A stretch of 64,000 nucleotides of DNA from Bacteroidales bacterium (GTDB lineage: Bacteria > Bacteroidota > Bacteroidia > Bacteroidales > P3). The stretch is from contig JAGCVI010000024.1 of assembly GCA_017962445.1 (NCBI GenBank), positions 1 to 64,000 on the forward strand. The letters run 5' to 3'. Below are positions 1,816-64,000 of the stretch, piece by piece. The notes below the pieces were generated by a model. It did not search any database. It was not told where the DNA came from and saw only the letters and a program-made list of their open reading frames with translations. Position 1 is the stretch's first letter, and each line of letters opens with the position of its first letter. Made by a program: the position numbers and the translations under genes.

Positions 1816-4749
1816 GTGTTCCGCCTCGCACATATAGTGATTCTACTTTTAGCCTTTGTCGCCACCGGCTATAGTCAGGTAGTGCCCTACAATACGGAGT
1901 CAAACTATATTATGAATCCTGGCGAGGGCGTCATCATCACTCCTCCGCGCGATCCATTCAACTACCTGACCAGCTGTAACGGACGACTTGTAGTCATCTC
2001 AGCCGCCGGAACGCCCATCCACATCACCGGCCAATATGACACTGAGCCTGAATTTGATGTCCTTTCTATATTTGACGGAATCACCCCAGCAGGCGAATTT
2101 TCGGGTCAGGGCTACATAGACCTCTGGATTTATTCCGGCACGGCACAAATCAGGTTCGTTTCTGACCACACATTGGTTTATACTGGCTTTGATCTCATGC
2201 TGCAAGCCTGCCAGACTGGCCTCAGCGAGATTGAGGATGTGACCATCGAAGGTATAACATCCCATTCCGCACACATATCGTGGCACGACTGGTCGATAGC
2301 CGAAGAATGGACTGTTTGCTATGGAACCAACACCATAACCCTCTCTGACACTGTTGTAACGCAGTCGACCAACTTGTTGCTTGACAATCTAGACCCTGGA
2401 CGGCCATACTATTTCAAGATTTTCAACAACAACGAAACCACACCTGACGGCGACCAATGCAAGGCCATCGAATACAAATTCCGCACCGAGTGCGAGACCT
2501 TGCCGCCAAACTGCGTTGAATACGACGATCTCAACTCATGCCACACCATGTGCTACTACGGCAACGTCCTCGACCCCGCATTATTCGTCGGTGTCGTCGA
2601 TTCCGGTTTCAACGACACAAGCCGACATACCGTTATAACCGATACAACGATTCATGATAGAATAGTCAATGAATTACGTGTCGTTCCGTCCGGATTTAAT
2701 TCCTCTGTCAGGCTTGGCAACGCCGATGTCCACTCCCGTGCCGAGCGAATATCATACGAAATCCTTGTTGACACCCTTGAGAGCGACATGCTCATCTTTA
2801 CCTACGCTCCTATACTGCAAGATGGCGGACATCCCGACACCATACAACCCAAAGTGCGGTTCCAATTCAACGATGCCTACCACAACCTCATCAATTCCAC
2901 CTGTACATCGGCAGAATTCGTGGCTGGCGACACAGTCGCCGGGATCTGGAATCACTCTCATGACGTTGACTGGCAGAACTGGTCCAAGGTAGCTCTCGAC
3001 CTCACACCCTATGAAGGACAGACCATCCGTGCAACTATATCGTCGTTCGACTGTGCTCAGGGCGAGCACTTCGGCTACGTCTATTTCGCCTTTATGTGTG
3101 GCAACAAAGTGTTCAATTCCACTGCCTGCGGTGAGACAATAGAAAACACCTTCACCGCACCTGAGGGATTCCGCTATCGATGGTTCCGAAATGATATGCC
3201 TTTAACCACCTTGAGTACGGAGCAATCGCTCCATGTCACCACTCCCGGCATCTACCATTGCGCCCTTTCCTTCCCTTCCGCCGACAACATCTCGTCGTGC
3301 AACATAGTCCTCTCCACCGTCGCCGGGGCACGCTATCCGAAAGCCAATTTCGACTGGTTCTACTACGACACTTCCGGATGCACCGACGTGACCATCCGAC
3401 TTGTCAACAAAAGCCGTATAGCCATAGACATCGGACGAGACAGCGTAACATCCTACCCCTGCGAATCGGCCTCATGGATTGTCGACGACACCTCCTTCTC
3501 GTCCGACTACAACCCGCGTTTCACGCTTCTGCCAGGATACCATACCATAACCCTTATCTCCATGCTTGCCGACGGCGATTGTACCGACACTCTGACACGT
3601 ACCATCTGGCTCAAGGACCCGGCCAACGACACCATCTACCGCACCTTCTGCCAAGGCACACAATATTCGTTCTACGACACGCTGATTTCCGACCCCGGCA
3701 TCTACGTCCGCGACAGCGGCTGCCACCACCGCACGCTGTTCCTTTTCATGAAACCGATGACCGACACATCCATAACGCACTACGTCATCGAGAACGACCT
3801 GCCCTACACCTACGGTCTACACACCTTTACCGACTCGGTCGATGACTTCCTTGTTCGCAGACGTAAACGCAACGGTTGCGACAGCCTGATACACTTCAAC
3901 CTGCATGTTTGGCGCAACACCTACCAGGAGTTTGAGCGGACCGTCTGTGACAACCAGATGCCATACACTTGGTGCGGCGAGACATTCAACAATCCCAACA
4001 CCGTGACACAATACCTCACATCCTCACATGGTGCCGACAGCACAGTGCAGCTAACCCTGCTGGTTCGCCATCCATCCGACTACTATGACACGGCTTATAT
4101 CTGCAACGGACGGCCTTTTACATGGATTGACGGCAAAACCTACTTCGGAGCGACCAACACACCGACCTTTGTGGTTTCCGACTCATCAGGATGCGATTCC
4201 ACATGGCATCTCGCCCTCTATACCACCGACAGTTATTTCCACGCCTCCATAGAAGCAACACCCAACCCCGTGACATATGAAAACAGCTGGGTTACACTCA
4301 ACGATCCATCCGGCAGCCACCATCGCAACTGGTTGTATGGCGACATGACCGACACCGCAAAGACAGTTAATTTCCTTTACCCATTCCCGGAAGACACAGT
4401 CCCCGTCACACTAATTGCATACGACGATATGGGTTGCCCCGACACAGCGTGGGCTGTAATCCGCACCGACGTGGCATCCTTCTGGGTTCCAAACGTCTTT
4501 ACACCGGACGAATCGTCAAACAAGGAATTCTTCATCTCGTCCAACGACATTGTCGAAGCACATGTATGGATATTTAACCGTGCAGGAACACTGATAACAG
4601 ATTTCGACGCCCTGACAGGCTCGTGGGACGGAACCTTCAAAGGCAAGCCCTGCCCGCAGGCTTCATACGTATGGCTGTTGGAATACACAACCAAAGGAAA
4701 ACCCAAGCTGACACAACACGCCAAAGGGACAATTACAATACTGAGATAA
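1816..4749 (+). CDS. T9SS type B sorting domain protein with CUB-like and FN3 domains
   Basis: Secreted surface protein of about 977 residues. The start is uncertain: no ATG precedes the signal peptide, and GTG at 1816 gives VFRLAHIVILLLAFVATGYSQ-like hydrophobic leader; the frame is open further upstream but that part overlaps the preceding gene in another frame. After the leader come a CUB-like beta-sandwich (about residues 22-135, motifs LSIFDG, SGQG, IRFVSD, ending in AC), a fibronectin type III domain (about 140-220, ISWHDW and LDPGRPYYFKIF), a long cysteine-poor middle region, GCDS/GADST repeats near 690-830, and a C-terminal TIGR04131-type sorting domain (VPNVFTPDESS, FDALTGSWDGT). The last part is a clear paralogue of the upstream gene. 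Ligand unknown. A strong bidirectional terminator follows. Confidence 0.85.
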   Translation: MFRLAHIVILLLAFVATGYSQVVPYNTESNYIMNPGEGVIITPPRDPFNYLTSCNGRLVVISAAGTPIHITGQYDTEPEFDVLSIFDGITPAGEFSGQGYIDLWIYSGTAQIRFVSDHTLVYTGFDLMLQACQTGLSEIEDVTIEGITSHSAHISWHDWSIAEEWTVCYGTNTITLSDTVVTQSTNLLLDNLDPGRPYYFKIFNNNETTPDGDQCKAIEYKFRTECETLPPNCVEYDDLNSCHTMCYYGNVLDPALFVGVVDSGFNDTSRHTVITDTTIHDRIVNELRVVPSGFNSSVRLGNADVHSRAERISYEILVDTLESDMLIFTYAPILQDGGHPDTIQPKVRFQFNDAYHNLINSTCTSAEFVAGDTVAGIWNHSHDVDWQNWSKVALDLTPYEGQTIRATISSFDCAQGEHFGYVYFAFMCGNKVFNSTACGETIENTFTAPEGFRYRWFRNDMPLTTLSTEQSLHVTTPGIYHCALSFPSADNISSCNIVLSTVAGARYPKANFDWFYYDTSGCTDVTIRLVNKSRIAIDIGRDSVTSYPCESASWIVDDTSFSSDYNPRFTLLPGYHTITLISMLADGDCTDTLTRTIWLKDPANDTIYRTFCQGTQYSFYDTLISDPGIYVRDSGCHHRTLFLFMKPMTDTSITHYVIENDLPYTYGLHTFTDSVDDFLVRRRKRNGCDSLIHFNLHVWRNTYQEFERTVCDNQMPYTWCGETFNNPNTVTQYLTSSHGADSTVQLTLLVRHPSDYYDTAYICNGRPFTWIDGKTYFGATNTPTFVVSDSSGCDSTWHLALYTTDSYFHASIEATPNPVTYENSWVTLNDPSGSHHRNWLYGDMTDTAKTVNFLYPFPEDTVPVTLIAYDDMGCPDTAWAVIRTDVASFWVPNVFTPDESSNKEFFISSNDIVEAHVWIFNRAGTLITDFDALTGSWDGTFKGKPCPQASYVWLLEYTTKGKPKLTQHAKGTITILR

Positions 4750-4784
4750 AAAAAACACCGCCTCAAATGGGCGGTGTTTTTTTA
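4748..4784. terminator. Bidirectional rho-independent terminator
   Basis: Perfect 8-bp stem ACACCGCC / GGCGGTGT (4755-4762 with 4770-4777) with a short loop, flanked by A8 on the left and T7 on the right, so it can end transcription in both directions. It lies between two convergent genes (stops at 4749 and 4800). Confidence 0.9.
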
Positions 4785-4799
4785 TTCAAGGAATGAATA

Positions 4800-5513
4800 T
4801 TACATTTTAGGAGTAGCGTTCTTAGCTTTCACAGGAATGTAGGATTCGCCTTTGGAAGCCTCGTTGCTGATCTTGACATTGTCAAGGCAGAGGAAGTAGC
4901 AGTCTTCGCTGTTGTGACGGAAAGCGATGCAAACATCCTGGCCCTTGAACTGATCAAGGTTGAATGAGCGGGTAGCAAAGCCCTCAGCAGGCTGTGCAGA
5001 ACCACTGGCAGCTGTGATAATTGCATTGTCAACCTCTTCGCTGCTCAGAGTACCTTGTGAAACGAAGTTACCGTTTTCCATAGTACCAACCATGACATAG
5101 ATGTAGTCAGGATATTCTTTCTGAAAACTTGCAACACTGTAAGTCAGAGAATAGCCACCTGCACCAGGAATATGGATTGTAGGAGTAATCAGGTAGTTAT
5201 CCGAGCTCAGAGGACCAACGTTATTGACAAAAGAAGGAGACACCATGCATTCAGTGCCATCAACACCCTCGGGTGAAGAAAAATAAGTCGTAGAGACTGT
5301 CCAGTTAACACCGTCGCCATCAGCGTCAATCAATGTCCAAGTCTGAGGAAGACCATTGTCAAATGTCTCATCCAAAAGAACAGGATCGCCGGTTTCGCCG
5401 TTGTTTCCGCCACCGCCGCCACCATTGTTTTCTTCGTCATCACCGCAGGCAATGAAAAGGGTGGTTCCAAGAGCTAAAGTAGCCAATGCAAAAATTCTGA
5501 AAACTTTTTTCAT
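4800..5513 (-). CDS. Lipoprotein with cleaved-adhesin-like (MAM-type) domain
   Basis: Predicted exported lipoprotein of 237 residues. The start ATG at 5513 gives a classic signal (MKKVFRIF, then hydrophobic stretch, lipobox ending IAC at Cys23) followed by an acidic and then poly-Gly linker (GDDEE, six Gly), typical of surface-exposed Bacteroidetes lipoproteins. An upstream ATG at 5552 is in frame but would add a meaningless 13-residue extension. The rest resembles the cleaved adhesin/choice-of-anchor family seen in gingipain-type proteins: LLDETFDNGLPQTWTLIDADGDG, a DNYLITP strand and a C-terminal CLDNVKIS strand. Likely carbohydrate or protein binding; the ligand cannot be told. Monocistronic, divergent from the thioredoxin-fold gene at 5882. 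Confidence 0.8.
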   Translation of the reverse strand: MKKVFRIFALATLALGTTLFIACGDDEENNGGGGGGNNGETGDPVLLDETFDNGLPQTWTLIDADGDGVNWTVSTTYFSSPEGVDGTECMVSPSFVNNVGPLSSDNYLITPTIHIPGAGGYSLTYSVASFQKEYPDYIYVMVGTMENGNFVSQGTLSSEEVDNAIITAASGSAQPAEGFATRSFNLDQFKGQDVCIAFRHNSEDCYFLCLDNVKISNEASKGESYIPVKAKNATPKM

Positions 5514-5575
5514 AATGTTGATTTTTAAATGTTTGGTTAATAATAAATTCAATTTGATTATTTCAAAACGATGTG

Positions 5576-5583
5576 CAAATATA
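5576..5583 (-). promoter_or_regulatory. Bacteroidetes -7 box for the 4800-5513 lipoprotein
   Basis: On the minus strand this reads TATATTTG, a match to TAnnTTTG, 63 bp upstream of the start codon. No convincing TTG -33 element is seen at the usual distance. Confidence 0.5.
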
Positions 5584-5798
5584 CACTTTTTTTTTGGAAA
5601 ACAGGAAACATTTTACAGAAAAGAATTGTTTTTATCAACAAATTTGCTGTTAGTAACATTATAAAAAAAAAATAAGTTATACAATAAAATATAGGCAATT
5701 GACTGATTCTATGACAGTACCATTCAAACATTATAACGTCAGGTATTTTAAACTTTATTTAATAAACAACGAACTGCTTCTTATTAAAAAAAATAATG

Positions 5799-5806
5799 TA
5801 TTTTTG
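5799..5806 (+). promoter_or_regulatory. Bacteroidetes -7 box for the 5882 gene
   Basis: TATTTTTG matches the Bacteroidetes -7 consensus TAnnTTTG and would give a transcript with a leader of about 70 nt before the ATG at 5882. The -33 element is weak. Confidence 0.55.
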
Positions 5807-5881
5807 CATTTGGAAAAAGACTCAAATAATTATTAATTAAAAACCGAAGAGCCTGATGGTCAATAACAAGGCAAAAAATAT

Positions 5882-7474
5882 ATGAAGAAAATATTATTAG
5901 TTGCATTGGCACTGACTCTGGGTTTTGCTGCAAACGCCCAGTTTGAAAGTGCAAAAAAAGTCGCCACAAAGGGTGCCAGCAAGGATCTGCCCACATGGAG
6001 CCCAATCCACACACCTTTCAGCTCGAACGACATCTACGGTAACCCCGTCAATGTCGCCGATACGCTTGCCGCCGGCAAGTACATAGTGGTCGACTACTCA
6101 GCCACCTGGTGCGGTCCCTGCTACCGTTTCCACAACTCCAAAGTGCTCGAGGCTATCCACAACCAGATGCCCAATGTGTGCGTCCTCTGGGTTGAGGCCG
6201 ACAACAGCACCACGCTGAACGACATCTACGGCACTGGCAGTAACACCCAGGGCGACTGGACACACTACAGCAACGGCGATTCCGTGTCGTACCGTATCAT
6301 CGACTGCGCATCCTGCGAAAGCATGATTGATCCCACTGGCTATGTGCCTGCCGTTTACTTCGTCACCCCCAGTGGCTATTTCTGCCATATCTACGGTGAA
6401 GATTGGGGCGTTTACATCGACCAGCCCGCTTCCGAGGCTATCTCCAACATCAATAGCCTTATCAACAACGCACCTCAACCTGGCGTAGTTCCAACTATCG
6501 ACATCCAGGGTCCCACCACCGTAATCAACGGCAGCCAGGTGACCTTCACTGCCAACATCGTCAGTGTTGACGCCGTGACCGACATCAGCTGGTCCGCCAC
6601 CGGCAACACCTTCACCACCAGCGGCAGCGGCAACACCTTCACCACCGGTTGGACCACCGACGGCGACTACACCGTAACCCTCACCGTGACCAACACCACC
6701 GGTACCAGCACAAAAACCATCAACGTCCATGTCTTCAGCTGGAACTGGGGCAACACCATGACCTATGGTCCTAGCATTAACGAAGCAAGCGCCGGATTCC
6801 GTTTCAACAGCGGCTCCACCAGCACATGGGGTGCCATGTTCCCCGCTCAGTTCATGACTGGCCGCCAGTACCTGAACAACGTCGAATTCTACGCTATCGG
6901 TACCATGAACTATACCCTCGATGTCTATCAGGGCGGTGAGACTACTCCCGAGACTAAGATTTACACCCGCACAATGAAGGGCAACGGCGAAGGCTGGCAG
7001 ACCATGAACATCAGCGGCGCTCTTCCGCTGGATCAGACCAAGAACCTCTGGATCAGCCTCACAGCTCCTCACGCTGCAGGTTATGTCATGAGCCTGTTTA
7101 TGCAGAATAGCGACTACTACTACAGCGGCGATCCCAATGGATGCTGGGCCAAGAGCAGCAGCGGCTGGACCACAATGGCCGCTATGGGCTATGAAGTGAC
7201 CTGGGCCATCCGTGCCACCACCGGCAACAACCCCAGCGCCGGTATCAACACCATCGGTAACATCGAAATGGACATCTACCCCAACCCGACCACCGGCATC
7301 GTCAACATCGAGGCCGAAGGTCTGCAGAATGTTGAAGTTATCGACATCACCGGCCGCGTCGTCATGACCACCACCGAGAACACTGTCAACATCAGCAACC
7401 TCAGCAACGGCGTCTACATGGTTCGCGTAAGCACCATCAACGGCACCGGCATGCAGAAAGTTGTCAAGAGATAA
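5882..7474 (+). CDS. Thioredoxin-fold, PKD and T9SS type A sorting domain protein
   Basis: Secreted 530-residue protein. A signal peptide (MKKILLVALALTLGFAANAQ) is followed by a thioredoxin-like domain at about residues 55-180 with the redox pair C77-GP-C80 in TWCGPC, then a PKD/Ig-like domain (about 200-285, ending TKTINVHVF), a beta-rich region of unknown family (about 290-430), and a C-terminal type A sorting domain (about 455-530: YPNPTTGIVNIEAEG, VIDITGRVV, GVYMVRV). The last domain predicts T9SS export and surface attachment or release. The retained CxxC suggests a thiol-disulfide role outside the cell, for example on exported cysteine-containing proteins; substrate unknown. It is very rich in G/C-ending codons, which produces a long antisense open frame. 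Followed by its own terminator. Confidence 0.88.
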   Translation: MKKILLVALALTLGFAANAQFESAKKVATKGASKDLPTWSPIHTPFSSNDIYGNPVNVADTLAAGKYIVVDYSATWCGPCYRFHNSKVLEAIHNQMPNVCVLWVEADNSTTLNDIYGTGSNTQGDWTHYSNGDSVSYRIIDCASCESMIDPTGYVPAVYFVTPSGYFCHIYGEDWGVYIDQPASEAISNINSLINNAPQPGVVPTIDIQGPTTVINGSQVTFTANIVSVDAVTDISWSATGNTFTTSGSGNTFTTGWTTDGDYTVTLTVTNTTGTSTKTINVHVFSWNWGNTMTYGPSINEASAGFRFNSGSTSTWGAMFPAQFMTGRQYLNNVEFYAIGTMNYTLDVYQGGETTPETKIYTRTMKGNGEGWQTMNISGALPLDQTKNLWISLTAPHAAGYVMSLFMQNSDYYYSGDPNGCWAKSSSGWTTMAAMGYEVTWAIRATTGNNPSAGINTIGNIEMDIYPNPTTGIVNIEAEGLQNVEVIDITGRVVMTTTENTVNISNLSNGVYMVRVSTINGTGMQKVVKR

Positions 7475-7491
7475 TGACAATCATTCCGAAT

Positions 7492-7525
7492 AAAAAAGCT
7501 CCGAAGATTTCGGAGCTTTTTTTTT
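7492..7525. terminator. Bidirectional rho-independent terminator
   Basis: Perfect 9-bp stem AGCTCCGAA / TTCGGAGCT (7497-7505 with 7509-7517), loop GAT, T9 downstream and A6 upstream. It separates the convergent genes ending at 7474 and 7547. Confidence 0.92.
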
Positions 7526-7546
7526 GTTCTGAGTATTATGGAGGGC

Positions 7547-8554
7547 TCAGGGCTTTAGGTTCTGCTTTATCGCAATCTTTAAGTTGTTAATATAAAACCG
7601 CCGGAACATCGACTGCCCATATATACGGCGGTATTTACGCGCATAGCGCATATAATGCCAACTGCGGAGGGCAACACGCACCACTGCCAATCGGTGCCGC
7701 TCGGGGCAGTGCATGTATATCTTCTCCAAGTCATCAGGCTGCAGTCCTCTCAAATCGTTTTCACCAACATTTATACCAAAAATACGAGCACAATATGCTG
7801 TCATAAGTTCGGCAAAAACCTCGACATCCGTGCCACGCTTCAGCTCATTGAATTTCTTTCGGTCAAAACCTTGCGCTGTTACAAGCATACTCCAGTCGAC
7901 AAGATCACGCAAACGCAAACGATGATGAAAAAAAACGGAGTGATGCTCTATGTGTTTTGCTATGAAGAAAGCCTCCTGTTCAAGCGGCAAATGCTGCAGA
8001 TGCAGGCTGTCGTCCATAGTCACAGGTGTCCAGTCAGGGTCGTCACCGTGATAAAGCAACCAGCGATGCAACTCAAACATCACACCGTCGAACGCAAGAG
8101 AATCATGGCGCGGGTCCTTGCGGTCAATAGGAACAATGTCCTCAAACAGCCGCGACACTCTGTCTGTGTCCACACCTGTAAGGATGTCGTTATCGCCACA
8201 TTCACGGTGCATCGGCTCAGGATACAAACGGCCTATCGAACTACCTTTCACAACCACGGTATCGATGCCTAATTCCTCGTTCACCTTCTCGGCGAAGCAT
8301 GCAAGGACAGTCTCTCTATGGTTGTTGTCGGTCCTTATTGTTTGAGTCATTGAAGCAAAATGGAACAGCACCGACCGCGGCGGTCGCTGTTCTTTAGGAA
8401 GTTTCATTATAGCATCATACGTCAATGCCGTGACAGCCTGCCGCCGCGACTCATCGAAAAGGGCGTTCCATTCCGACTCATCCAACGGTTTTGCAAGCAC
8501 ATCTATCGGGTTTGCACCGCCAAAAAGACTGAATTTCAGCAATTCGCTAATCAC
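7547..8554 (-). CDS. Nucleotidyltransferase-like protein (NTP_transf_5 type)
   Basis: About 335 residues with the layout of the uncharacterised nucleotidyltransferase family PF14907: an N-terminal helix pair (ISELLKFSLFGG), a central VVVKGSSIGRLYPEPMHRECGDNDIL segment in which the G-S and D-x-D-like acidic residues fit a nucleotidyltransferase core, then a helical C-terminus with histidines. I chose the GTG at 8554: it begins exactly where the family similarity begins and is preceded by AGGAGGAAG at good spacing, and it overlaps the stop of the upstream glycosyltransferase by 8 nt. The alternative in-frame start at 8632 would overlap by 86 nt. Family members often sit next to surface-polysaccharide or peptide-modification genes; the substrate here is unknown. 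Translationally coupled to the gene before it. Confidence 0.7.
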   Translation of the reverse strand: MISELLKFSLFGGANPIDVLAKPLDESEWNALFDESRRQAVTALTYDAIMKLPKEQRPPRSVLFHFASMTQTIRTDNNHRETVLACFAEKVNEELGIDTVVVKGSSIGRLYPEPMHRECGDNDILTGVDTDRVSRLFEDIVPIDRKDPRHDSLAFDGVMFELHRWLLYHGDDPDWTPVTMDDSLHLQHLPLEQEAFFIAKHIEHHSVFFHHRLRLRDLVDWSMLVTAQGFDRKKFNELKRGTDVEVFAELMTAYCARIFGINVGENDLRGLQPDDLEKIYMHCPERHRLAVVRVALRSWHYMRYARKYRRIYGQSMFRRFYINNLKIAIKQNLKP

Positions 8555-57339: not shown

Positions 57340-58392
57340 TCAGAAGCCGACGTGGAGCTCCTTGAGTTTTTTGACATAGTCGCTGACGGCTGAGATGGGG
57401 GTACCGATCCGGAACGATATGTGATGTCGACGTGCGGCAAAAACTCCTAAACCGCCGTTTATATTGGTATAGGTAAACGGCTCTTGCGACAATGCGCCAG
57501 CAGGGTTGCCTGCATAGATGTACGCGGCAAGGTCCTCGGTACAGCAGTAAATGAATACATCCACAGTGTCGATGATATTCTTGTTGCAGGTGTCATTGCC
57601 TATCGCGTTTTTTATTGTCGACAGGAAGTAGTTCTGGTCCAGATAGGTGGTGTAGCTGCTGTTGCGCATATTGCTCTTGACCGTATTGCAAGGAATGTCG
57701 ATATGGTGTGGGGTTATGGTGGTGTCCCACGGGCTGTTGTTACGGTTGATGATGAAATCGCGGTAGTGGAAGCGTATCATAGGCTGGTACTGACGTGCAT
57801 TGCGAAGTGCAGACCACGTTATCTCGCAGGTCTTGCTACCTGCCGTGCCTCCAAACTGGAACAATGTTACATTATTGGGCTTATGGAGGCTCATAGTACC
57901 CTTGATGAGTGTGGTTTCTGCCCAGGCTATAGTATCACCACTGTTGTTATCCACAACTTTGAGACAATAAAGATACGACGTGTCAAGCTGTCCGGCCGTT
58001 GGACAGAAAAAGACAGGCTGCATCGTGTTGTAGAACGGTCCTTCCTCTTTGTTAACAATCTCTGTATATGTAAAATTGTAGATTTTGCGAGGACTGTCAC
58101 CATAACGTTGAGGAATGCCCTGTTCGTCACTCCACATGCGCCATTCTTCCATAAGAACCGATATTTCCCCTTGGGGATAATAGATTGAATCGGCCATCGT
58201 GGCGTATTGCGTATGATCGCCATCGCCGAGGAAACAGCGCTGCACGCGGACATATGTCGTGTCGTCGTCCTGGTCAAGGACACAATAAACAACAGGGATA
58301 TTCTTCCACTCGGCATTGGGAGAGAACTCGACATCGCACGAGGCGAACATTGCGAGAATCGGAATCAGTAGTATTGGTTTGAAATGTTTCAA
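57340..58392 (-). CDS. DUF4249-like lipoprotein
   Basis: Envelope lipoprotein of 350 residues with lipobox ending AMFASC at Cys19. Beta-rich body with VVYCVLDQDDDTTYVRVQRCFLGDGD, EGPFYNTMQP, YLYCLKVVDNNSGDTIAWAETTLI, and a final NINGGLGVFAARRHHISFRIG, which resembles the DUF4249 family often found next to SusC-like transporters in Bacteroidetes; no SusC is present here. Start is TTG at 58392, the only start that gives a signal peptide. Directly upstream is a 16-bp-period repeat array (58394-58472). Function unknown. Confidence 0.78.
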   Translation of the reverse strand: MKHFKPILLIPILAMFASCDVEFSPNAEWKNIPVVYCVLDQDDDTTYVRVQRCFLGDGDHTQYATMADSIYYPQGEISVLMEEWRMWSDEQGIPQRYGDSPRKIYNFTYTEIVNKEEGPFYNTMQPVFFCPTAGQLDTSYLYCLKVVDNNSGDTIAWAETTLIKGTMSLHKPNNVTLFQFGGTAGSKTCEITWSALRNARQYQPMIRFHYRDFIINRNNSPWDTTITPHHIDIPCNTVKSNMRNSSYTTYLDQNYFLSTIKNAIGNDTCNKNIIDTVDVFIYCCTEDLAAYIYAGNPAGALSQEPFTYTNINGGLGVFAARRHHISFRIGTPISAVSDYVKKLKELHVGF

Positions 58393-58578: not shown

Positions 58579-59292
58579 TCAAACATTTTCGTTTACAATA
58601 TCATTGATAATCACAGATGCACAGATGCATCCAAAAAGCGGAGGGAGATAAGAGATGGTGCCAATAGTGGTGCGTTTGTTCTCGGAAGGGTCCTCAACCA
58701 CTGCATGTTCAGCAACTTTCTCGGTTGAGAAGACAACTTTGATGCCGTCATTGATGTTCATGCGGTGCAGCCGTTTCCGTACCACAGCAGCGAGAGGGCA
58801 AGTATGGCTCTTGGATATGTCGGCAACAGTTACGGCGAGGGGGTCGAGCTTGCCGGCACTGCCCATGGAACTGACAACGGGGATATTCATGGTTCGTGCA
58901 TGGTAGAGTAGAAACACTTTGGGCGATAGCGTGTCGATAGCGTCAGCAACATAGCTAAAAGTGTCCGACTGAAGCAGCTCCATGGTGGCCTCGTCCCTCA
59001 AGAACTGATCAACAACTCTCACCTGACAGTCCGGATTGATATCGGCAAAACGCTGCCTGAAGAGCTCTGTCTTCGGCATGCCGACAGTGGAATGGAGCGC
59101 TATCACTTGCCTGTTGATATTCGACTCCGAAACACTGTCATGGTCCACAATGGTCAGCTTACCCACACCTGCACGGCAGAGCATCTCGGCTGTATAGCCG
59201 CCCACACCTCCCAAACCCACAACAAGGACATGGGCATCCTTCAGACGTTGCAGTCCTTCCGGTTTTAGGAGAAGTTGTGTGCGCGTGAACAT
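58579..59292 (-). CDS. tcdA: tRNA threonylcarbamoyladenosine dehydratase
   Basis: E1-like ATP-dependent enzyme of 237 residues that cyclises t6A37 of tRNA to ct6A. The adenylation fold is plain: VLVVGLGGVGGYTAEMLCRAGVGKLTIVDHDSVSESNINRQVIAL (Rossmann P-loop, R of the N-x-x-R-Q motif) and YVADAIDTLSPKVFLLYHA. GTISYLPPLFGCICASVIINDI at the end is typical of TcdA/CsdL. It starts 8 nt after the stop of the GH2-fold gene and is probably carried on that transcript, though functionally unrelated. Confidence 0.9.
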   Translation of the reverse strand: MFTRTQLLLKPEGLQRLKDAHVLVVGLGGVGGYTAEMLCRAGVGKLTIVDHDSVSESNINRQVIALHSTVGMPKTELFRQRFADINPDCQVRVVDQFLRDEATMELLQSDTFSYVADAIDTLSPKVFLLYHARTMNIPVVSSMGSAGKLDPLAVTVADISKSHTCPLAAVVRKRLHRMNINDGIKVVFSTEKVAEHAVVEDPSENKRTTIGTISYLPPLFGCICASVIINDIVNENV

Positions 59293-59300
59293 CGTATATC

Positions 59301-62300
59301 TTACTTAATCACTTCGTTGAGCTGTATTTCGTCAACCATTATCCAGGGGCGGAGTCCTTTGGCTTTATGCCATGTGGGAATGCGTCCCATATTGGTGGCA
59401 ACGAGACGTACATACTTGACTTCCGGCTTGTTGACATCAATTGTGACGGTGACAAGCTGCGGTTTGTTCATCGACTCTTCCTCAGGTGCGTATTTCAACT
59501 TGGCAGCGATGGCCGGAGAATAATTCACGCCGTCGGACGAGACGAACGCCTGCACTGCAATGGGTGCAAAAGCCCATGCATCAGGGACATGTGCAAAGTT
59601 GACCACCACCTGCTGGAGTTCGATGGGTTTGCTAAGTTCAAGGACAACATTAAGGTCGTTGCCAGAGAAACCAAGCCAGCCTCGCGATAATTCGCTGATG
59701 TCGCCGTTCTCGCCATCAAAAAGAATAGTCTCCTGGTTGTAGTTGTAAGGAGTATTGGACTTATTGACAAACGACGCATTGACAATATAGTCAAAATTGA
59801 AGCGTTTGACAGCTGTGAATGAAGGCGTTGAACCATTCTTGAAAACCTTTGCCTTCACATAGGTCGAGTTTTCAATCACGAAAGGTTTCTTGTAAAGAGG
59901 TGACTTGAGATCCGGAGTGCTGCCGTCAAGAGTGTAATGAATCTCTGACTTGGGAGTCGAAGAAGAGAGAGTAATAGTCATCGGGCGGTCAAAACGCTCA
60001 AGACTCTTGGTGATTACGGGCATTGGAAGCACACTGGATACGATCTCGGGGTACTGCACACGGCAGAAATCATAGGGGTTGTACTCATCCAGATTATAGG
60101 CGCGCATGTGCATACGGAAGTGGTAGCTGCGGGCATCAACCAGGTTGTTGTCGGATACATGGGTACCGGCAAGGGCACTTCCTACAGCAGCCTGACGGTA
60201 GTCGACATTGAAAGTCCAGAAGTCCTGTTCTTTGAGAGAGCCGCTGCCTGTTGATTCTGAAAGCTGCAAATCGGTATAGGGGTAGATACTGAAATTGAAG
60301 TTGGTATCGAGCAAGTCGACATAGAAACCGATATTGCCATTCTCGACAGAGACCCAACGGACACCTGCACGGTTGCCGCTTTCCTGAGGTTTGTCATACT
60401 TGAAGAACATAGAATTTGCGGCACGTTTGTAAGTACCCGCAACACCTGAGGAGCGGCGGTCGCTATAGGTCTCCTTGTCAAGACCAAACCAACGCACTGT
60501 GTCAAACTGTCTGGAGAGGCACATCTGCATACCGACTTTGGGAAGGGTTTTAACCTGTTCGGTAGCGACTATCTCGTTGTCAATAAGGACATCACCGGTA
60601 TAGAGGACTGCTATTGACTGTTTTACGTCGAAGAGCACATTGCCCGATGCGTCGGTGTAGCGCAACATGGCGTCGATACCTACAGTGTAGGCATCAATCT
60701 GGCGGTAGTTGGTGGCCACAACTGTTCGGCGCATATTGTCCGGAGCGATGTTTTGCCAGAGACGGAGAGCGTTCTTGTCGACGCGATCGTTGTCGGTCGG
60801 AGCACGCCAGAAGTTGACCTGTGGAGATGAAAGCAGCAGGTCGCGGTCGTGGAACTTATAAGCCACAATCTCAGCCATGTTGAGGTCATACCATAATTCA
60901 ATATTGTCATTGAAAAGCTGTATCACGCCATTATCCTCGTTGGTATTGGCCTTTGTAACAAATAATTCCTCGCGATCGTAGTCGCTCAGTTTCTCCTTCT
61001 TTATTTCCTTCATCGGAAGAGGGAACTCCACCACACCAAGCTCAGTGCCTTTAGGAACGGCCTCAGTGTCCTTGCGCTGACGTACAGTGAAGCGGATGAA
61101 GAGTTCCTCGCCGGCATAAAGGGTAAGTGCCGGAATTTTGAGCTTGAAGTTCTTGGACTCGCCAGGTTTAAGCGATACAGACACCTCACCTTCTATAATG
61201 CGGTTCTTAAGATTGGAGAAAATGGTGTATTCCAATATGTAGTCGTTCAGAGTGAGGAACGAAAGGTAGTTCGTAACGTTGAACTCAGCGGCATCGGGGC
61301 TGATAGCCATAAGCTGCACGTCGAACGGACGATAGATGTTGCGGAGCTCGGAGAGATATGGCATCGGTCTACCATCGTCGGTGACCAGACCAGGCAGACG
61401 AATGTCGGAATGGGTGGCGACATCATAGCAATCTGCAAAGTTCCAATAGGTTGCGAAACCGCCCTGCAACGAACTGTGACGACGTACCAACTGCCACATA
61501 GGCTCAAGGTTACCATATGAATTGCCCTTGGCCGAACCAAATGCCGACAGAATCAACGGACGAGGCTGCTGCTTGGCCGCGAAGAGTTTGAGGTCGTCAT
61601 AGTCAAGATAAGCAGGAGCGACAGCATCGGTATTATCGGAATAGCCGGCACCCGGGAAAAGGACTGGACGCGATTTGTCTTTCTGCTTAAGAGCCCGATA
61701 GGTCTGTTCCATACAGATTCCGTTGTCGACACCGTCGCCAAGCGACCAGGCTATTACGGAAGGATGGTTTTTAAATCGCTCGTACATATTCTGGACACGC
61801 GATATAAACATATTGATATAAGCCTTGTCGGTTGCGACAGCCTTAGAGGTTGCCGAGAAAGGCTGAATATTGGCGTCGCAAATGACATAGAGGCCGTACT
61901 CGTCGCAAAGCTGATAGAACAACGGTGAAGCCGGAGAATACAGAGCCGTACGCACAGCGTTGATGTTGTACTGCTTCATTAGTTTCAAATCGTTCCGAAT
62001 CTGCGATTCAGAAGGAATACCGTCCTTTTCGTTGGAAAAGAACGAATAGACTGTTCCCCGCAATGTTACCGGCATACCATTGACTTTGAGCAGACCATCC
62101 TTGACCTCTACGGTGCGAAATCCGAAACGACTGCCGACGGTCTCAATGAGTTCCATTTTCTTGTCGCGCAGACGGACAACCATGGTATACATGTTAGGTG
62201 TTTCGGCAGACCATGACAAGATACCTCCGAATGTGCGATCAAACTTAATCTCAAGTTCGTTCTTTTTGTCAAACACTACCCAACGACCCATCTTGTCAAG

Positions 62301-63161
62301 CTGGTGGCCTTTGGTGTCCCACAGCTCGACTTCGACATAGTACTGTCCTTTCTTGCTCTCATTGAAAATATTGAGTTTTGTAAGAAACGAACCTGTAGAG
62401 CTAGCAGCGTCATAGTCGGCTGTGATTTGCATATCAAGCACATTCACCATAGGCTTGAGCACAATGAACACGTCGGAGGTGATTCCATTGTAATTACGGG
62501 CATAGTTTGATTCAAGCATAGAGCCGTCAGAGACGCTGACCACCTGAACCACGATATTGTTGGTCTTTCCGTAACGAAGATGTTTGGTAAGTTCGAATTC
62601 ACTGATATCCCGTGAATCCTCACTGTATCCGACATATTCCTGGTTTACCCAAATATAGTAGGCTGATTTGGCCTGAAGATTGAGAAAAGCCTTATAACCC
62701 TTCCATGTCTTAGGCACATTAAACTCCTTGTAATAGGTTGCCACATAATTATTTGAACTCGGCATCTCGACAGCGCTCTTTACCTGCGGAGCCGAAACCG
62801 TCTTGCTGCCGTCAGACCATCGAGCGGAAGGGACCACGACAGTAGGCCATCCTGCAGCGGAGAAGTCTTTCTGCTCCATGTTTGTAGGACGGTTGGCGAA
62901 ACCCTTTTTAAGATCCATGTGCCATTCGCCGTTAAGACTGACATAATACGGTGAATGTGCATAGTCATTTTTTTCAATTGCATTCTCGTTGGCGTAGGGA
63001 ACAACATTGGCACGGGGATAGAGCTTGTGCTGCTCGAATATCTCGACATCGTTCCATTCGTCCTGAACGATAGCCTCGGCGTTTTTGCCTTTTTTATTCT
63101 GTGCATTGACTGCACAACACGTAAAGAGGGCAATGACTATTATGAGGAGTTTTTTTTCCAT
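59301..63161 (-). CDS. LacZ-like GH2-fold protein lacking all catalytic residues, with chitobiase-C-like and discoidin-like domains
   Basis: Exported 1286-residue protein (signal peptide MEKKLLIIVIALFTCCAVNAQ). Domains in order: GH2 jelly-roll (about 65-240), Ig-like GH2 domain (about 245-360), TIM barrel (about 365-660), Ig-like DUF4981-type domain (about 665-775), LacZ C-terminal supersandwich (about 780-1045, NFWRAPTDND at 783), chitobiase/HEX C-terminal-like module (about 1055-1125, IHYTLDGSTPD) and an F5/8 type C-like module (about 1130-1286). Aligned by eye to E. coli LacZ, the acid/base Glu461 position is Gly477 (WSLGDG for WSLGNE), nucleophile Glu537 is Ala540 (ILSAFG for ILCEYA), Mg ligands Glu416 and His418 are Gln433 and Phe435, and His391 is Leu407. 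It cannot hydrolyse glycosides by the GH2 mechanism. No T9SS tail. Operon with the barrel gene upstream and tcdA downstream. Confidence 0.9.
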   Translation of the reverse strand: MEKKLLIIVIALFTCCAVNAQNKKGKNAEAIVQDEWNDVEIFEQHKLYPRANVVPYANENAIEKNDYAHSPYYVSLNGEWHMDLKKGFANRPTNMEQKDFSAAGWPTVVVPSARWSDGSKTVSAPQVKSAVEMPSSNNYVATYYKEFNVPKTWKGYKAFLNLQAKSAYYIWVNQEYVGYSEDSRDISEFELTKHLRYGKTNNIVVQVVSVSDGSMLESNYARNYNGITSDVFIVLKPMVNVLDMQITADYDAASSTGSFLTKLNIFNESKKGQYYVEVELWDTKGHQLDKMGRWVVFDKKNELEIKFDRTFGGILSWSAETPNMYTMVVRLRDKKMELIETVGSRFGFRTVEVKDGLLKVNGMPVTLRGTVYSFFSNEKDGIPSESQIRNDLKLMKQYNINAVRTALYSPASPLFYQLCDEYGLYVICDANIQPFSATSKAVATDKAYINMFISRVQNMYERFKNHPSVIAWSLGDGVDNGICMEQTYRALKQKDKSRPVLFPGAGYSDNTDAVAPAYLDYDDLKLFAAKQQPRPLILSAFGSAKGNSYGNLEPMWQLVRRHSSLQGGFATYWNFADCYDVATHSDIRLPGLVTDDGRPMPYLSELRNIYRPFDVQLMAISPDAAEFNVTNYLSFLTLNDYILEYTIFSNLKNRIIEGEVSVSLKPGESKNFKLKIPALTLYAGEELFIRFTVRQRKDTEAVPKGTELGVVEFPLPMKEIKKEKLSDYDREELFVTKANTNEDNGVIQLFNDNIELWYDLNMAEIVAYKFHDRDLLLSSPQVNFWRAPTDNDRVDKNALRLWQNIAPDNMRRTVVATNYRQIDAYTVGIDAMLRYTDASGNVLFDVKQSIAVLYTGDVLIDNEIVATEQVKTLPKVGMQMCLSRQFDTVRWFGLDKETYSDRRSSGVAGTYKRAANSMFFKYDKPQESGNRAGVRWVSVENGNIGFYVDLLDTNFNFSIYPYTDLQLSESTGSGSLKEQDFWTFNVDYRQAAVGSALAGTHVSDNNLVDARSYHFRMHMRAYNLDEYNPYDFCRVQYPEIVSSVLPMPVITKSLERFDRPMTITLSSSTPKSEIHYTLDGSTPDLKSPLYKKPFVIENSTYVKAKVFKNGSTPSFTAVKRFNFDYIVNASFVNKSNTPYNYNQETILFDGENGDISELSRGWLGFSGNDLNVVLELSKPIELQQVVVNFAHVPDAWAFAPIAVQAFVSSDGVNYSPAIAAKLKYAPEEESMNKPQLVTVTIDVNKPEVKYVRLVATNMGRIPTWHKAKGLRPWIMVDEIQLNEVIK

Positions 63162-63180: not shown

Positions 63181-63822
63181 TTAGAAATTGACACCCAGTC
63201 CGCACTTGAAATGATGATATAGTTCGGACATGCGGGTAGCAGCAACGGAGTTGAATCCACGCTCCACGCTGTTGTTATGGATCATTTGGTAGCCCAGGTA
63301 AAAGTTGAGGGCAATTTTCTGGCTGATTGCAAAACGCAAGCCACCTTCGAGACCCATTGTGATTCCTCCTTCGTCAATACGAGTGTAGTCGTCGATAGCA
63401 TTCTTCGACCCGAAGGGGATGCTATAGCCAAGTTGAAACGACGAGAAAGGTGTGAGCCTGCTACGCATGTAATGGCTACGGAATTCAAGGAATACCGGAA
63501 TCTGAGAGAATGAGCCATCAGGGTCGTTAAGATACGAGAAGCCTATACCCAAGGCCGTTTCCTTGCGGAACTGCCAACCTACGATGGCAGTTATACCACT
63601 CAAGGTGTATTTGTCAACGGCATAAACCACATCGCCGGTACTTGGATTCATATACTGGCCTGACTCATTCTTAAAAGAAGTCATAAAACTATAGTCTACA
63701 ATACCATAGAAGCCATAATATTTGAATTCGACATGCGGAGGGGTCAACAGCGGAGGCTGTTCTGCTTTGGAGCAAACCACAACAGCCATCAGAACAAGAA
63801 ACAAGAATGATTTCTTCATCAA
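63181..63822 (-). CDS. Small outer-membrane beta-barrel protein
   Basis: Exported 213-residue protein with signal peptide (MMKKSFLFLVLMAVVVCSKA). The mature chain alternates short amphipathic strands (FKYYGFYGIVDYSFM, YTLSGITAIVGWQFRKETALGIGFSYL, LTPFSSFQLGYSIPFG, GGITMGLEGGLRFAISQKIALNFYLGYQM) and ends in FKCGLGVNF, typical of an 8-strand outer-membrane barrel. The GH2-fold gene starts 19 nt downstream, so the two are likely co-transcribed. No family name can be given beyond an OmpA/PorT-like barrel. Confidence 0.85.
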   Translation of the reverse strand: MMKKSFLFLVLMAVVVCSKAEQPPLLTPPHVEFKYYGFYGIVDYSFMTSFKNESGQYMNPSTGDVVYAVDKYTLSGITAIVGWQFRKETALGIGFSYLNDPDGSFSQIPVFLEFRSHYMRSRLTPFSSFQLGYSIPFGSKNAIDDYTRIDEGGITMGLEGGLRFAISQKIALNFYLGYQMIHNNSVERGFNSVAATRMSELYHHFKCGLGVNF

Positions 63823-63910: not shown

Positions 63911-64000
63911 CTACTTTATCTCTTTGAGGTTGGGAGACACTATCAGCGTAGCCTCGGTAGCAGCCTGTACATCAGCAACGGTGAATTCAGGGTTGATTTC
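63911..64000 (-). CDS. C-terminal end of a probable CoA-transferase subunit B (truncated by window edge)
   Basis: The last 29 codons of a minus-strand gene: EINPEFTVADVQAATEATLI, then VSPNLKEIK and stop TAG (63913-63911). The pattern P-x-F-T-V-x-x-V-x-x-A-T-x-A-x-L-I-V is that of the C-terminus of the beta subunit of 3-oxoacid or acetate/butyrate CoA-transferases. A CoA-transferase would fit with butyrate kinase elsewhere in the window, but the identification rests on a short tail. Followed by a terminator. Confidence 0.55.
   Translation of the reverse strand, partial: EINPEFTVADVQAATEATLIVSPNLKEIK

Follow-up and report, generated by a model that had tools for sequence, protein, structure and literature searches.

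The window analyzed here, the first 64,000 nucleotides of contig JAGCVI010000024.1 (assembly GCA_017962445.1) of a Bacteroidales bacterium, carries on its minus strand a gene for a 1286-residue protein, here called pseudo-LacZ, that has the scaffold of the glycoside hydrolase family 2 (GH2) beta-galactosidase LacZ and lacks its catalytic residues. From its sequence, pseudo-LacZ is nearly certain to be non-catalytic as a GH2. Selection maintains its LacZ shape, and the protein very probably serves a different purpose in the cell envelope, one that involves no cutting. Pseudoglycosidases are known as a kind; what is new here is a clade-wide bacterial GH2 case with an intermediate stage in sister genera.

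The pseudo-LacZ gene and its lost catalytic residues

As the first-pass annotation of this locus had stated, the frame is uninterrupted (0 internal stops). Pfam matches follow one another in order as Glyco_hydro_2_N, Glyco_hydro_2, Glyco_hydro_2_C, LacZ_4, Bgal_small_N and CHB_HEX_C_1 (Table 1), and the protein belongs to the GH2/LacZ fold, with five LacZ domains and a triosephosphate isomerase (TIM) barrel flanked by beta-sandwich domains. Fold prediction was confident across the length of the protein, the F5/8-type-C part not being folded. By sequence, this C-terminal part is an F5/8-type-C domain of the CBM32/discoidin kind lying outside the folded portion; Pfam F5_F8_type_C (PF00754) is matched in 12 of 24 family members and not in the window protein itself, and a 54-member profile aligned with the chitobiase-C plus discoidin module at the 6q63 C-terminus with an E-value of 4.6e-31. 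The window protein falls short of the NCBI LacZ equivalogs, the best being NF052611 (558.9 bits against a cut-off of 999), a model that matches all 24 members of set A1 at E ≤1e-5.

We assumed the functional roles of the E. coli LacZ residues (acid/base, nucleophile, Mg ligands and sugar contacts) and verified their letters by alignment. Comparisons by phmmer against 3dec, 3bga and 6sd0, by MAFFT against E. coli LacZ and, profile against profile, by hhalign all place Gly477 at acid/base Glu461 and Ala540 at nucleophile Glu537, with SLGDGVDNG aligned to SLGNE... and ILSAFGSAKGN to the nucleophile segment. In the MAFFT alignment, Gln433 and Phe435 stand in place of Mg ligands Glu416 and His418, and Leu407 in place of His391. 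These substitutions, together with that of the YSFFS segment, had been named in the first-pass annotation and are identical by phmmer and MAFFT; an alternative alignment restoring a Glu to the former active site was found with none of the three methods. To say that every such residue is replaced was a slight overstatement, since 14 of 15 E. coli LacZ positions checked by MAFFT are changed or gapped and the equivalent of Tyr503, Tyr518, is kept. The acid/base Glu, the nucleophile Glu and both Mg ligands that mark a GH2 beta-galactosidase are absent.

The genome family of the window comprises 190 genomes in 12 genera; the window's genus is termed g1, and the sister genera g4 and g11. Residues were counted in 119 family sequences (110 from 109 g1 genomes, G070 contributing two copies, plus nine from the sister genera; G096 was matched in the genome search and is absent from the fetched sequences). 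Conservation was measured in 88 members (80 from g1 and eight from g4 and g11, with L135, a broken frame from G077, dropped and L025, L026, L258, L260 and later-fetched loci excluded) against 40 active LacZs, among them L100, itself without Mg ligands. The prediction that the same residues are lost across the clade held for the acid/base Glu, absent from 119/119 sequences, and for the nucleophile in g1, where Glu is absent from 109/110 (the exception being L082); all nine sister-genus sequences keep the nucleophile. Glu at column 433, a Mg-ligand position, occurs in none of the 119 (one being gapped there), and g4 and g11 likewise lack the Mg ligands and the residues that contact sugar. Across 11 catalytic-shell columns, of which column 503 was included after its loss had been seen, the active residue is kept in 2.3% of cells in the 88 members, as against 64.5% for 110 other columns invariant in the 40 active LacZs, and the shell is therefore not merely drifting with the rest of the protein. 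The lining of the former pocket, unlike an active site, is variable across the family, so that a conserved sugar site in the old pocket is not indicated, and this candidate was rejected.

One active-clade LacZ of the window's genus, L100 (G041:C111, coding frame approximately 4465-7647 of its locus, minus strand), keeps both catalytic Glu and no longer has the Mg ligands or the equivalents of His540 and Trp568; it is possibly a second, independent decay under way.

Table 1. Features of the pseudo-LacZ locus, in window coordinates
Feature	Position	Strand	Remarks
Pseudo-LacZ coding sequence	59301..63161	-	1286 aa plus stop; GH2/LacZ scaffold intact, catalytic residues replaced
Sec-type signal peptide, residues ~1-20 (...AVNA|Q)	63102..63161	-	Read from sequence; no clear lipobox; pattern common to family
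Glyco_hydro_2_N domain, residues 75-235	62457..62939	-	Greatest loss of constraint; Pfam and conservation comparison
Glyco_hydro_2 Ig-like domain, residues 241-349	62115..62441	-	Constraint gained; Pfam and conservation comparison
Vestigial TIM barrel, residues 351-612	61326..62111	-	Pfam, conservation comparison and fold prediction
Pro434 codon	61860..61862	-	Beside lost Glu416 position; Pro in 117/119, Ser in 36/40 active LacZs
Gly477 codon	61731..61733	-	Acid/base Glu461 position (phmmer, MAFFT, hhalign); Glu in 0/119 family sequences
Asp479 codon	61725..61727	-	Two residues after lost acid/base; Asp/Glu in 117/119, Gly in 40/40 active LacZs
Gly504 codon	61650..61652	-	Beside a lost Glu; Gly in 81/88, Arg in 34/40 active LacZs
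Ala540 codon	61542..61544	-	Nucleophile Glu537 position (phmmer, MAFFT, hhalign); Glu in 1/110 of genus, 9/9 of sister genera
LacZ_4 domain, residues 627-716	61014..61283	-	Pfam
Bgal_small_N domain, residues 752-1018	60108..60908	-	Pfam
CHB_HEX_C_1 domain, residues 1057-1114	59820..59993	-	Most conserved module of family; Pfam and conservation comparison
F5/8-type-C (discoidin/CBM32-like) region, residues 1119-1286	59304..59807	-	Resembles C-terminus of beta-hexosaminidase 6q63
Small outer-membrane beta-barrel	63181..63819	-	212 aa with signal peptide; 19 bases upstream of pseudo-LacZ; likely partner
ThiF/TcdA-like gene	58579..59292	-	8 bases downstream of pseudo-LacZ; neighbour, not considered part
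DUF4249-like lipoprotein gene	57340..58392	-	Match below Pfam cut-off; lies downstream; shared with genera lacking pseudo-LacZ

Distribution, history and shifted constraint

Pseudo-LacZ was identified in 120 genomes, each of a different species, with identities of 32-76%: 110/120 genomes of g1, 6/6 of g4 (a fragment only in one and a gene split over two contigs in another) and 4/4 of g11. No copy was identified in G010, G030, G049, G051, G055, G059, G061, G062, G068 or G106, which are 64-89% complete and in which weaker matches were left unread. Both catalytic Glu are kept in 17/17 other LacZs read from the same genome family and in 74/74 loci outside it, namely those of 20 of 211 order-level genomes with a match and 54 non-family loci among the best 80 matches of a genome-collection scan; frames in L166 and L245 that match only the C-terminal module were left uncounted. 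Another 25 matches listed in that collection are pseudo-LacZ members from uncultured Bacteroidales or Bacteroidetes, many with record titles naming rumen or hind-gut sources. Bacterium P3, currently Candidatus Hemicellulosilyticus sp. P3 at NCBI, carries the gene. That genus name is said to originate with Solden et al. in 2017, reportedly under a title on the rumen family BS11, and we infer that the whole pseudo-LacZ group may be BS11.

Pseudo-LacZ forms a single fully supported branch in a tree of 34 pseudo and 34 active rows, and the same branch was recovered in a bootstrap tree (20 pseudo and 16 active rows) and with the TIM-barrel columns removed (26 and 19). On the TIM-less tree one change accounts for the acid/base residue and two for the nucleophile, the second of them at L082, the g1 sequence with Glu; these counts make it likely that the acid/base residue was lost first, on the stem, and the nucleophile later, on the g1 branch. 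Active Bacteroidales LacZ relatives already possess the chitobiase-C/discoidin module. The first-pass annotation was misleading in calling these modules added, as they were inherited and then became more constrained.

G070 has two pseudo-LacZ copies (L081 and L093) that belong to separate subclades, and a barrel gene accompanies each; with 6% contamination, this genome may be a mixed bin. A plasmid search returned 1749 records, all below 60% identity and with the residues at catalytic positions unread, and a viral-contig scan with the C-terminal module gave weak matches only, which were not used. A role in a mobile element or in defence was rejected: PHROGs gave no match, and the only PADLOC match, 163 residues long, was to a single beta-galactosidase fusion model.

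The pairwise ratio of nonsynonymous to synonymous substitution rates (dN/dS) of pseudo-LacZ is low, with a median of 0.082 (25 pairs with dS <2). The same measure is 0.006 for CoA-transferase (9 pairs) and reaches 0.209 for the DUF4249-like neighbour (11), with trigger factor at 0.058 (8) and the barrel at 0.096 (14). By domain, all values lie within 0.075-0.109 (15 pairs pooled). Among the genomes read, only two had homologues with a broken frame.

Domain conservation was compared at matched Bgal_small divergence (30-40% identity; 148 pairs of active and 1746 of pseudo sequences). The active set draws on a broader range of taxa than the pseudo set, and the pairs, as for dN/dS, are not mutually independent. 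In active LacZs the catalytic domains, GH2_N and TIM barrel, are the most conserved (0.524 and 0.594), and these fall in pseudo-LacZ to 0.316 and 0.460. Conversely, conservation is higher in pseudo-LacZ for the Ig-like domain (0.459 vs 0.305), LacZ_4 (0.414 vs 0.224), chitobiase-C (0.551 vs 0.33, the active figure coming from few pairs) and the discoidin part (0.489 vs 0.303). At a threshold of ≥0.9 in the 88 pseudo and ≥0.8 in the 40 active sequences, exactly three columns switch from one strongly conserved residue to another, Ser to Pro434, Gly to Asp479 and Arg to Gly504, each at most two residues from a lost catalytic-shell column; a limit of 0.8 on both sides adds columns 250, 415 and 444. 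The switched columns point to a putatively re-tooled barrel rim, and a purely structural cause is possible. Pseudo-LacZ is a pseudoglycosidase in that it is a glycosidase homologue without catalytic residues that is maintained by selection, and the proposal that it was selected for a non-catalytic role is borne out by the shared losses, low dN/dS, intact frames and movement of constraint to non-catalytic modules.

Neighbouring genes and predicted export

The small barrel encoded upstream had been suggested as a partner, a proposal that is supported in part. It is predicted to be an 8-stranded transmembrane barrel with a signal peptide; the window protein has no Pfam match, and PF13505 is matched in 36/53 relatives at E ≤0.1. 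It resembles the small 8-stranded kind of NspA (1p4t), PagL (2erv) and OmpA (1qjp), with only 10-16% sequence identity. A barrel match lies upstream of pseudo-LacZ in 80/81 loci of the window's genus, and its orthologues are confined almost entirely to genomes with pseudo-LacZ. The barrel has near-invariant polar residues (His29, Glu31, Gln83, Arg85, Asp99, Gln106, Glu112, Arg114 and His116), which give the impression of exceeding the needs of a simple anchor.

Pseudo-LacZ is a better match to the barrel distribution than the lysine-aminomutase (kam) genes, because PF09043 occurs without the barrel and the barrel without PF09043: the domain is found in 170/190 genomes of the genome family, including genera without the barrel, and G032, G035, G038 and G083 (94, 74, 80 and 93% complete) have no aminomutase and keep both barrel and pseudo-LacZ. 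The barrel as a partner in lysine degradation was rejected on these grounds. The DUF4249-like neighbour was rejected as a specific partner because it is present in genera without pseudo-LacZ, despite having the highest distance correlation. A CoA-transferase gene lies at 63911-64000, with lysine 5,6-aminomutase genes beyond the window (G000:C8); given the frequency of the aminomutase, the genome family seems to have lysine degradation among its core properties. In nine g4 and g11 loci (L246-L254), the gene immediately after the barrel encodes 619-622 aa, and the one tested belongs to the sulfatase family PF00884. A promoter and terminator scan gave 24 promoter-like sites against 15.8 (sd 4.6) in shuffles, and terminator-like sites no more frequent than in shuffles.

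A crude pattern recognized a Sec-type signal peptide in 72/88 members, and inspection by eye added 13 of the 16 that it missed, the last three having doubtful starts; pseudo-LacZ is therefore predicted to be exported. The cell-surface location suggested in the first-pass annotation stays hypothetical. A lipobox-like pattern occurs in only 3/88 members, and no Por_Secre_tail was found on pseudo-LacZ, though the window's genome has 31 such matches above cut-off. Given these signals, the periplasm would be at least as likely a location as the cell surface. Genome-wide there are 35 Por_Secre_tail matches including those 31, a number from which the bacterium probably makes heavy use of type 9 secretion.

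A probable non-catalytic role in the cell envelope

We consider it probable that a duplicated secreted LacZ turned into an envelope protein that binds or scaffolds without catalysis, the barrel being its likely partner or dock. The starting point would have been a LacZ already bearing the C-terminal chitobiase-C/discoidin module; the acid/base residue would have been lost in the common ancestor of the three genera and the nucleophile afterwards in the window's genus, the protein surviving in its new role. The TIM barrel would then serve as a re-tooled and rigid core, the working surfaces, which bind glycan or an envelope partner, may lie on the beta-sandwich and C-terminal modules, and the upstream 8-stranded barrel may be the partner or dock. 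A stronger version, in which pseudo-LacZ and the barrel form a dedicated envelope complex, core to the group, with the old active-site rim (Pro434, Asp/Glu479 and Gly504) as a new binding site, is tentative and less likely than not.

Several observations weigh against this reading. The vestigial pocket is itself variable across the family. In the sister genera the barrel follows kamE and CoA-transferase genes in 9/9 loci read, on a contig other than that of pseudo-LacZ, which qualifies the case for partnership made from g1. Another 57 order-level genomes have weaker barrel relatives (≤73 bits), and the matching distributions can reflect a single origin common to the three genera, which are related. 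Controlled for trigger factor, the partial r of pseudo-LacZ is 0.74 with the DUF4249-like gene and 0.57 with the barrel (the distance correlation with the CoA-transferase control being 0.13). Finally, broken copies occur in G077 (one in-frame stop; L026 and L135) and G107 (three pieces; L256 and L291), for which sequencing error is not excluded.

The alternative that fares best, though we hold it unlikely, is a housekeeping envelope protein unrelated to sugar, such as a periplasmic chaperone or assembly scaffold, beside which the barrel is a bystander by ancestry. Near-universality in the genus, housekeeping-type neighbours, the lack of recognised sugar-uptake genes beside pseudo-LacZ and of a surface-export tail, the unconserved sugar pocket and distance correlations that do not favour the barrel all agree with it. 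On the other side, conservation is highest in the chitobiase-C/discoidin module, of a kind that often binds carbohydrate, and the barrel distribution tracks pseudo-LacZ rather than kam. It is improbable that pseudo-LacZ is still an enzyme in which the acid at 479 replaces the acid/base residue and the sister-genus Glu540 completes a shifted pair. The switch from Gly to an acid at 479 (Table 1) and Glu540 in every sister-genus sequence fit this idea, but the nucleophile is gone from nearly all of the window's genus, the Mg ligands and sugar contacts are lost in the sister genera also, and the pocket lining varies freely.

There is equally little room for the idea that pseudo-LacZ serves an active LacZ paralogue as a regulatory or structural subunit, for instance within a mixed oligomer. 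Active LacZs do occur in other genomes of the genus and in that of the window, and inactive GH28 proteins of beetles work in the pathway of their active relatives (PMC6549527). As a general role this is largely refuted, because pseudo-LacZ is the only Glyco_hydro_2_C match in four of 11 genomes examined (G031, G033, G038 and G184; 94, 93, 80 and 97% complete); it also has only 27-33% identity to the paralogue of its own genome. A decaying pseudogene whose frame happens to be unbroken has the two broken genomes in its favour and is hardly credible, being already refuted for the clade by dN/dS, which is near 0.08 and low in all domains; persistence in 120 divergent species, new near-invariant residues and a confident predicted fold also speak against it.

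The preferred reading, an envelope protein derived from LacZ, can be set beside known systems. Compared with the LacZ beta-galactosidases of B. thetaiotaomicron (3dec, 3bga) and E. coli (1dp0), pseudo-LacZ differs at the acid/base, nucleophile and Mg-ligand positions and at most sugar contacts, and it carries an additional C-terminal module that some Bacteroidales LacZs also have; the same module is joined in 6q63 to a hexosaminidase. Among pseudoglycosidases, Klotho belongs to GH1. YKL-39 (GH18), Klotho and CyRPA (GH33) are described as such proteins (PMC7828330), which like pseudo-LacZ have a glycosidase fold without catalytic residues and are kept for another function; these come from animals and a protozoan and from other families, whereas pseudo-LacZ is bacterial, GH2, longer than 1200 aa and clade-wide, and its ligand binding is putative. 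The leaf-beetle GH28 proteins (PMC6549527) are likewise glycosidase-family pseudoenzymes that matter for fitness, but act beside active relatives, while some pseudo-LacZ genomes have no other GH2-barrel match. A classification from 2025 that splits GH2 into 23 subfamilies gives the nucleophile as an invariant Glu (PMC12243196), the words 'inactive' and 'pseudo' are absent from a 2016 paper on GH2 architecture (PMC5145203), and no GH2 pseudoenzyme family was found in the open-licence papers searched.

Approximately 120 uncultured rumen and gut species carry a gene that strongly matches NCBI beta-galactosidase models, the window protein lying below their cut-offs, and automatic annotation may therefore credit them with a sugar-cutting ability that pseudo-LacZ lacks. 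The family also offers a graded series, from active LacZ, through proteins with the acid/base residue lost and the nucleophile kept, to proteins with both lost and new residues conserved, which lets the conversion of an enzyme scaffold to a non-enzyme be tested within one protein family.

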